A DNA stretch of 32,358 nucleotides. Origin: Akkermansia muciniphila. Lineage in GTDB: Bacteria > Verrucomicrobiota > Verrucomicrobiia > Limisphaerales > JADLHS01. The translations under genes and the position numbers were made by a program. The stretch lies in the NCBI GenBank assembly GCA_945882065.1, contig CAMCWI010000013.1, forward strand, positions 1 through 32,358, given 5' to 3'. The notes beneath the pieces were generated by a model. The model was not told the origin of the DNA. It was given only the letters and a program-made list of their open reading frames with translations, and did no database searches. Of this stretch, positions 1,336 through 8,710 are shown one piece after another; position 1 is the stretch's first letter; every line of letters starts with the position of its first letter.

Positions 1336-2760
1336 ATGAAAGAACTCGATTTGATTTTACGCGACGGAACGGTGGTGACGCACGAGGGCGAAAGCGTTGC
1401 AGACATCGGCATTGCTGACGGACGGATTGTCGCTGTTGGAAACATTCCTGGCGGCAAGGCGCGTGAGGAGATCAAGGCTGATGGGCTGCACATTTTTCCG
1501 GGGCTGATTGATTCGCATGTTCACTTCAATGAGCCGGGGCGCGCGGATTGGGAGGGGATTGAAACCGGTTCACGCGCGCTGGCGGCTGGCGGCGGCACGA
1601 TGTTCTTCGATATGCCGCTCAACGCGCATCCACCGACGTGCGATGCGGCGAGCTTTGATGAGAAGGCCGGTCTGGCGGCGGAAAAATCTTTCACGGACTT
1701 CGCGCTGTGGGGCGGGCTTGTGCCGGGGAATCTGCATTGTCTCGAGCAATTGGCCGAGCGCGGGGTGATCGGGTTCAAGGCGTTCATGTCGAACAGCGGC
1801 ATCGAGGATTTTTCCTGCGTGGATGAAACGACGTTGCGCGAGGGGATGAAGCGCGCGGCAAAGCTGGGCAAGTTGGTGGCGGTTCATGCAGAGAGCGAGA
1901 TCACCACGAGCGAATTGTCGAAACGCGCGCAGGACAAAGGCAAGACTTCCATCCGCGATTATCTGGATTCGCGCCCGATCTACGCGGAGTTGGATGCGAT
2001 CCATCGCGCGATCCAACTGGCGGGTGAGACGAAGTGCGCGTTGCACATCGTGCATGTGAGTTCAGGCGCGGGTGTGGCGTTGGTAGCGAGCGCGCAGAAG
2101 CAAGGCGTGGATGTGACGTGCGAGACGTGTCCGCATTATCTCGTGCTTACTGAGGATGACGTGGAGAAGCTCGGCGCAGTGGCGAAGTGCGCGCCGCCGT
2201 TGCGCCCGAAGTCGGCACAGGATGTTTTGTGGCGTTACGTGGAGAATGGTTACGTGAGCACGATCGGATCGGATCACTCGCCGTCGATGCCGGAGATGAA
2301 GCGGGATAAAAAATTTTTCAAGGTGTGGGGCGGGATTTCAGGAGTGCAGCATACGTTGCCGCTGCTCTTATCTCGTAGCAGCCGACGTGAGTCGGCTCAA
2401 ACTGAAAACGGAGCAGGAAGTCAGAGCCGACTCACGTCGGCTGCTACGAGTAATGAAGTGGAGTTGGTGCTCTCACACATCGCGCGGCTCACGTCGTTCA
2501 ATGTTGCTGAACGTTTTAATCTACCGAAGACAAAGGGGCGCATCGCGGTCGGGGCGGATGCGGACTTGGCGCTGGTGGACTTGAAGGCGCAATTCACCGT
2601 GCGCGCGGAGGATTTATTGTATCGCCATCGGCAGAGTCCGTATGTGGGGCGCGCGTTGACAGGGCGCGTGGTTCGCAGCATCCTGCGCGGGAAGACGGTG
2701 TTTCACGATGGAAAGATTGTTTCGCAGCCGATGGGTCAGTTGGTAAAACCGAACCCTTAA
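1336..2760 (+). CDS. allB: Allantoinase
   Basis: This 474-residue cyclic amidohydrolase opens the allantoin ring to allantoate. The metal-centre residues of the dihydroorotase/allantoinase family are in place: H61 and H63 in DSHVHFNEPG, the carboxylated lysine K148 in GFKAF, H184 in VHAESE, H240 in HIVHVSS and D313 in GSDHSPS. CETCPHYL and WGGISGVQ favour allantoinase over hydantoinase. The ATG at 1336 was chosen because it is directly followed by the first beta strand; an upstream in-frame extension would run into the repeat copy A. Residues about 346-372 (SRSSRRESAQ to LTSAATS) are absent from normal family members and are encoded by a palindromic repeat. Without them the protein has the usual length of about 447 residues. 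The frame survives, so the enzyme may still be active. Confidence 0.93.
   Translation: MKELDLILRDGTVVTHEGESVADIGIADGRIVAVGNIPGGKAREEIKADGLHIFPGLIDSHVHFNEPGRADWEGIETGSRALAAGGGTMFFDMPLNAHPPTCDAASFDEKAGLAAEKSFTDFALWGGLVPGNLHCLEQLAERGVIGFKAFMSNSGIEDFSCVDETTLREGMKRAAKLGKLVAVHAESEITTSELSKRAQDKGKTSIRDYLDSRPIYAELDAIHRAIQLAGETKCALHIVHVSSGAGVALVASAQKQGVDVTCETCPHYLVLTEDDVEKLGAVAKCAPPLRPKSAQDVLWRYVENGYVSTIGSDHSPSMPEMKRDKKFFKVWGGISGVQHTLPLLLSRSSRRESAQTENGAGSQSRLTSAATSNEVELVLSHIARLTSFNVAERFNLPKTKGRIAVGADADLALVDLKAQFTVRAEDLLYRHRQSPYVGRALTGRVVRSILRGKTVFHDGKIVSQPMGQLVKPNP
2372..2450. repeat. Palindromic repeat inserted in frame within allB
   Basis: A perfect 27-bp inverted repeat (arms 2372-2398 and 2424-2450) surrounds a 25-bp centre. 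The left arm begins CTCGTAGCAGCCGACG and the right arm is its exact reverse complement. The arms can form a long hairpin in the mRNA. All three parts are translated as part of allantoinase, adding about 27 residues between the LPLLL segment and the NEVEL segment. The arm sequence resembles intergenic repeats I recall from Verrucomicrobiota, but I cannot count copies here. Confidence 0.9.
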
Positions 2761-7060: not shown

Positions 7061-7178
7061 TGCGGAGTGCTCCGAACGCTTTCGGGGCAGCGACTTCCGC
7101 AAACACCGTGGTCAGGAATTCAGGAAAGCCGCTCTCCCCGCCGTGAATTGCTGTGGCCGAGGACGGCCACACTCCGCA
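7061..7178. repeat. Structured dispersed repeat, copy B
   Basis: Ends TGCGGAGTG (7061-7069) and CACTCCGCA (7170-7178) are inverted repeats. Inside are a hairpin GCTCCGAA-CGCT-TTCGGGGC (7069-7088), the block AGCGACTTCCGC (7089-7100) and a second hairpin TGTGGCCG-AGGA-CGGCCACA (7152-7171). The layout equals copy A at 1172-1281, and one stem pair differs by a compensatory exchange. It begins directly after the aceB stop codon. Confidence 0.75.
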
Positions 7179-8352: not shown

Positions 8353-8509
8353 AGATTTTTCTGATTGGGTTGTGAATTGAACGTGTTCTTTATATCCCTC
8401 TTTTCAAAAGCGTGAACCTGCATAAACATGTGAAATCCAAATCGTCATCCGTGTTTCACCCGATGAAGCCAGCAGGACAGACTCATTTAATTTTCTGATT
8501 AACACAGTA

Positions 8510-8632
8510 GCTTTAGCCCGGTGTAAGCAGATTAAAATGGAGTTTCCAGCCGTTTCAACGGCGTAGGGAATAGAGAGAAACCGTTGAAACGGTTCTCACA
8601 AGGTTTTGCGCGCAGTGACACCGGGCTAAAGC
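8510..8632. repeat. Nested palindromic repeat
   Basis: Outer arms GCTTTAGCCCGGTGT (8510-8524) and ACACCGGGCTAAAGC (8618-8632) are perfect inverted repeats. Inside, CCGTTTCAACGG (8550-8561) and CCGTTGAAACGG (8581-8592) form a second inverted pair, and each is nearly self-palindromic. The element occupies much of the 358-bp gap between the divergent PEP-CTERM and methyltransferase genes. The rest of that gap (8353-8509) is AT-richer and presumably holds the PEP-CTERM promoter, but I cannot place -35/-10 boxes with confidence. Confidence 0.85.
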
Positions 8633-8710
8633 CGCGGTGTCAATGAAATCACCAACCCCAATGCAGAATTAGATGCGTCTGCCCTGGATGCATTCATTCG
8701 CAGGATTGAA

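Follow-up and report, generated by a model that had tools for sequence, protein, structure and literature searches.

Palindromic repeats that lie in frame within coding sequences are a known kind of element, described in Opitutus terrae in 2013 and in Rickettsia. The RPEs of Rickettsia are, in a review's account, palindromes of about 150 bp that lie in frame in unrelated genes, are translated and are thought to be structurally tolerated (Ogata 2000, 2002, reviewed in PMC10969869); two of their families, RPE-4 and RPE-6, are CGTC-tagged (PMC3733652). GTAG REPs have likewise been reported within ORFs (Di Nocera et al. 2013, PMC3733652); Opitutus terrae, a member of the Verrucomicrobia, has the largest number of them, and the genes hit include uvrA and that for DNA ligase. 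Dimers or groups, coding for 20-30 residues, make up over half of the intragenic GTAG inserts listed in that study; loops or linkers were suggested as tolerated places, recB is hit at about the same site in two Xanthomonas species, and a flanking gene may take its stop codon from the TAG of GTAG (PMC3733652). In Pseudomonas fluorescens SBW25, only 14 of 1,067 REP 16-mers overlap genes (PMC3116915). We have analysed a palindrome within the allantoinase gene allB of a verrucomicrobial draft genome and conclude that it is a GTAG-type REPIN (an inverted REP doublet, BIME type), which very probably inserted as mobile DNA into allB and is tolerated in frame as a predicted translated loop.

The features of the window (the whole stretch of DNA that was analysed, 32,358 nucleotides) on which this conclusion bears are as follows.
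1336..2760, + strand: allB, the allantoinase gene (474 aa) that carries the insert, assigned by its open frame, the AllB model and the fold.
2372..2450, no strand assigned: 27-bp perfect inverted repeat with a 25-bp centre, corresponding to AllB residues 346-372.
2375..2397, + strand: left REP arm, GTAG followed by C and the hairpin AGCCGAC-GTGA-GTCGGCT, read as SSRRESA; an exact match to the genome's commonest arm type.
2398..2424, + strand: REPIN spacer, of a plan like that of other copies, e.g. the mnmA copy (L025).
2425..2447, - strand: right REP arm, inverted, read as SRLTSAAT, the preferred phase; like the left arm, it matches the commonest type exactly.

The left arm of the inverted repeat (2372-2398) is CTCGTAGCAGCCGACGTGAGTCGGCTC and the right arm (2424-2450) is its exact reverse complement over 27 bp, so that the palindrome was recovered within allB exactly, and at the same coordinates, as the original prediction had described it. 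Two matches to the 23-nt arm are seen in the window, compared with none expected from 100 window shuffles, and the inverted repeat folds as RNA at -61.5 kcal/mol (z = -10.9) and as DNA with the same z of -10.9. The lack of arm matches in the shuffles, together with fold z-scores near -10.9, excludes a chance origin. Within the element, two GTAG-tagged hairpins stand face to face with GTAG outermost, spanning 73 bp from GTAG to CTAC. It thus has the mark of GTAG REPs, a short palindrome preceded on its 5' side by the tetranucleotide GTAG (or GTGG), and, as an inverted doublet folding into one hairpin, the structure of a REPIN; most sites in the genome are such +/- pairs, of 61-108 bp.

The original prediction had treated the element as an unclassified palindrome with Rickettsia as its main precedent. 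It is indeed a real mobile palindrome, and its in-frame position resembles that of the RPEs, but it can be classified as a REP doublet, and the GTAG REPs of Opitutus terrae, from the same superfamily and phylum, are the nearer precedent. The likeness to the latter extends to GTAG-tagged palindromes, often dimers, in ORFs, with uvrA again targeted; however, Opitutus terrae belongs to a different order, and the likeness is one of description rather than of compared REP sequences. As with RPEs, insertion in frame within genes is evident from the continuity of frame and domains, from which translation would follow. Unlike the RPE families, from which we separate it by description rather than by alignment, the allB element is GTAG-tagged at both ends and only 73 bp long. 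It shares with the REPINs of SBW25 the inverted REP doublet forming one hairpin (PMC3116915), but differs in that many sites lie inside genes and in that a cognate RAYT, known in SBW25, was not found here.

The allB frame contains no stop codon from 1336 to 2760, palindrome included. Its product scores 557 bits against TIGR03178 (allantoinase AllB; cut-off 358), is 44% identical to the solved structure 3hm7 (TM 0.88-0.97), has the predicted fold of solved allantoinases and has its nearest named database relatives in Limisphaerales and other Verrucomicrobia. The metal-ligand positions H63, K148, H184, H240 and D313 are invariant in 31 orthologues, and H61 is nearly so. Genes for a cupin, a GAF domain, an M20 peptidase and malate synthase (Pfam) lie 3' of allB, which fits a purine-breakdown cluster. 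We modelled the protein with AlphaFold2, as the original prediction had suggested: mean pLDDT is 91.9, falling below 50 at residues 357-372, which sit between helices 337-357 and 372-393. From this model the insert is read as a disordered surface loop joining two helices, and most likely the REPIN peptide has no function in AllB. About 27 extra residues had been predicted without a break in frame; the element does account for 27 and the frame is open, but orthologues with a short loop are about 23 residues shorter here, since remodelling has also affected the native loop.

Other repeats are present in the same window. Copies of ATTGCTGTGCCCGAGGACGGGCACACTCCG, 93% identical, lie at 1251-1280 (upstream of allB) and 7147-7176 (after the malate synthase gene), and belong to a different family from the allB REPIN. 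The palindrome CCCTCACCCTAACCCTCTCCCCCGGGGAGAGGG occupies 1048-1090, also upstream of allB; a similar repeat, of the type CCCTCTCCC..GGAGAGGG, occurs in uvrD of the related genome G002. At 8498-8644, a 27-nt inverted repeat (85%), TAGCTTTAGCCCGGTGT..ACACCGGGCTAAAGC, surrounds an inner hairpin, CCGTTTCAACGG..CCGTTGAAACGG, and is probably another dispersed repeat.

The source genome (G000) is a draft of 348 contigs that total 3.86 Mb, with a completeness of 89.7%. Searching it with the arm gave 63 copies at up to three mismatches, against none for a reversed-pattern control, so that the arm is multi-copy and dispersed; the original prediction had named a lack of further copies as telling against it. 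Arm matches were also found in 73 of 146 related genomes. A census by arm pattern in fetched loci of the source genome gave 53 distinct sites, which we called coding where an ORF was open through the element and codon usage was coding on both sides (a simple codon score), with domain models in addition. Twenty of these 53 lie in frame within coding ORFs, or 19 non-redundant sites when two near-identical dnaX contigs are counted once, and the genes include ileS, mutS, uvrA, uvrD, mnmA, dnaX and prpD. A single Pfam or NCBIfam model spans the element in PrpD, MutS, MnmA, a LolD-like ABC ATPase, a carbamoyltransferase, UvrD, a DUF3516 helicase and IleS, and domain matches flank it in UvrA, DnaX, a class III aminotransferase, an RND pump and others. 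Since IleS, MnmA and DnaX are normally indispensable, or almost so, the REPIN peptide must be tolerated in them. Among the source genome sites examined, none was found to break a gene out of frame; two candidates for such breakage were rejected, as their sites are gaps between neighbouring genes. The proposal that a verrucomicrobial palindrome spreads into genes and is tolerated there as peptide is thus supported by the 63 arms and the 19 non-redundant in-frame sites.

The pattern extends to relatives. In G010, from another genus of the family, 20 of 35 sites are in frame in genes, including those for AlaRS and MutS, an approximate fraction, since good arm matches guided the choice of sites. 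A mainly extragenic location is usual for GTAG REPs, though it is no part of their structural definition, and intragenic units are included in PMC3733652; extragenic sites are the majority in the source genome and the minority in this selected set. One REPIN lies in AroA of G007, and the REPIN in MutS is common to three genera and is therefore long-lived rather than an error of assembly. Several individual loci may also be recorded: mutS of G010 (L336) carries two separate in-frame REPINs; a class III aminotransferase gene of the source genome (C235, L236) carries, in frame, a single REP arm followed by a GGAGAAA-type repeat; dnaX with the same REPIN occurs on contigs C234 (L235) and C299 (L256) at about 93% identity, which suggests a duplicate or a mixed draft genome; and on contig C322 (L251, 2126) the TAG of the REP's GTAG is the stop codon of the upstream gene.

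The draft state of the genome, with its 348 contigs and two similar dnaX contigs, might lead one to regard the insert as an artefact of assembly or binning, or allB as a pseudogene. We consider this extremely improbable, since the same kind of insert recurs in many genes and genomes, that in MutS across genera, and since AllB retains its catalytic residues and an open frame. Translational bypass elements exist in other systems, and the hairpins might similarly mark an insert that is bypassed by the ribosome or removed from the RNA. Beyond the presence of hairpins nothing favours this suggestion, which is equally far-fetched, since frame and stop codons would then be irrelevant, yet the intragenic copies are in frame and stop-free and none was found out of frame.

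The phase in which the repeat is read was also compared between sites. Of the three phases of the left REP arm two are readable, the third reading TAG; no phase of the right arm contains a stop. When 34 intragenic doublets from the source genome and G010 were compared, leaving out near-identical kinase copies, taking sites as independent and ignoring spacer constraints, 25 read the right arm as SRLTSAAT where one-third would be expected (binomial p ~2e-6). This phase was used at 15/17 sites in the source genome and 10/17 in G010; the other phases read RADSRRLL and EPTHVGCY. We infer from these sequences that the preference may reflect selection for a bland hydrophilic peptide. We also sought target duplications from element length modulo 3, but length alone shows nothing, the counts for remainders 1/2/0 being 12/4/2 in intragenic doublets and 9/6/4 in the others.

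It could instead be argued that the palindrome is kept in allB mainly as RNA or DNA, through translation slowing, mRNA stability or the binding of gyrase or RAYT. The hairpin is very stable, and in MutS orthologues the REP arms are identical at 44-46 of 46 positions while spacers are identical at 15-17 of 22. However, homogenisation, or the shared descent of a repeat under constraint, would conserve the arms as well, copies lie in many unrelated genes, and the phase preference points to selection on the peptide, so that we regard such a role as rather unlikely.

We compared the insertion point in AllB with that of other family members. Most orthologues have a short loop, TEGxxxR, at this position, and 26 of 31 aligned proteins are without a long insert, as the original prediction had expected; not foreseen were the four other orthologues with long inserts. 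The five inserts are:
Insert 1: the window REPIN (GTAG, 73 bp).
Insert 2: in L066, a GTAG REPIN of another subtype, with many of that type in its genome.
Insert 3: in L034/L063, a 90-bp palindrome with 29 matches in its genome.
Insert 4: in L070, a palindrome whose arm occurs 106 times in the same genome.
Insert 5: in L180, a sequence that is single-copy in its genome.
Four of the five are thus palindromic repeats that are dispersed in the respective genomes, and they represent three unrelated families; the L180 insert was rejected as a repeat on account of its single copy. Long loops do therefore exist elsewhere, which might have weakened the case, but as they are mostly other repeats they strengthen it. 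No other internal insert of at least five residues in rare columns was found among the 31 proteins. When the loop was left out of the AllB tree, well-supported branches required the state to change five times independently. Shared CTCTTATC flanks had suggested that the REPINs of the window and of L066 have one ancestor; this was rejected as the two lie in different well-supported clades with insert-free sisters; that the L066 arm is of a subtype common in its own genome also argues against a shared origin. The nearest AllB orthologues are 72-75% identical and differ in loop length, so that an exact empty site, a target duplication or a loss cannot be read.

Loops that bear REPINs in UvrA, the LolD-like ABC protein, PrpD, UvrD and MutS carry other palindromes or short tandem repeats in orthologues of other species. 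The tandem repeats at these loops include (GGCAATC)n, (GAAATCC)n and (AGAAAGC)n; those with 7-nt units in prpD, LolD-like and uvrD orthologues (L261, L262, L263, L273, L283, L287) occupy the same loops in other species of the family. The relatives' loops at REPIN sites vary in length and do not fix the insertion boundaries. Five independent long inserts at one AllB loop, with none elsewhere in the protein, four of them dispersed repeats of unrelated families, and the similar occupation of loops in other proteins, might indicate that the AllB loop is a docking site which attracts or repeatedly exchanges mobile repeats at the same codons, and not just a position at which chance insertions persist. 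This idea is possible but in our judgement doubtful, since survivorship at the most permissive loop would give the same pattern without targeting, and neither a target motif nor an exchange event was seen directly.

The explanation that we consider very probable is, rather, that a mobile REPIN landed in allB, as at 18 other non-redundant in-frame sites elsewhere in the genome, and that, lying in the allB frame without a stop, it would be translated into a 27-residue, hydrophilic, disordered surface loop between helices. Insertions would land widely, and those surviving purifying selection would be the ones in frame and in a permissive loop. A RAYT-type HuH (Y1) transposase, working in trans on the single-stranded hairpins, may have spread the copies. 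Other GTAG REPs are mobilised in this way, with cleavage at CT beside the hairpin and an important part for GTAG (PMC8266576). A REPtron for the allB-type REP was sought in the source genome and eight relatives and not found: there were no arms of the allB type near the two Y1 transposases of the source genome (89.7% complete), and none of 30 fetched loci in the relatives had a transposase tightly flanked by such an arm. Three of these 30 loci have allB-type arms at a distance of 0.5-1 kb, and several are flanked by other GTAG repeats. In relatives, the Y1 transposase genes of L294, L315 and L313 lie near other GTAG hairpins, GTAGCCCACGGC..GCCGTGGG and GTAGCTCGACATT..AATGTCGAG, and these loci are possible REPtrons for other REP families.

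In comparison with the Opitutus terrae report, 38-57% of the sites examined here are intragenic, three unrelated families occupy one loop and a phase preference has been measured. Both the recurrent insertion of unrelated repeats in one permissive loop and the reading-frame preference look new; a limited literature search found no description of either. For annotators, a REP sequence inside such genes is not to be equated with an assembly error. This study extends protein-coding palindromes to metagenome-derived verrucomicrobia, where they occur at high frequency, essential enzymes included. That unrelated repeats have repeatedly colonised one AllB loop amounts to a natural experiment on which positions in proteins tolerate insertions, and on whether mobile repeats furnish new protein sequence. 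More speculatively, permissive loops in Limisphaerales might be shared landing or exchange sites, at which unrelated palindromes and tandem repeats turn over in frame, under phase selection, and so diversify the loops of core enzymes.
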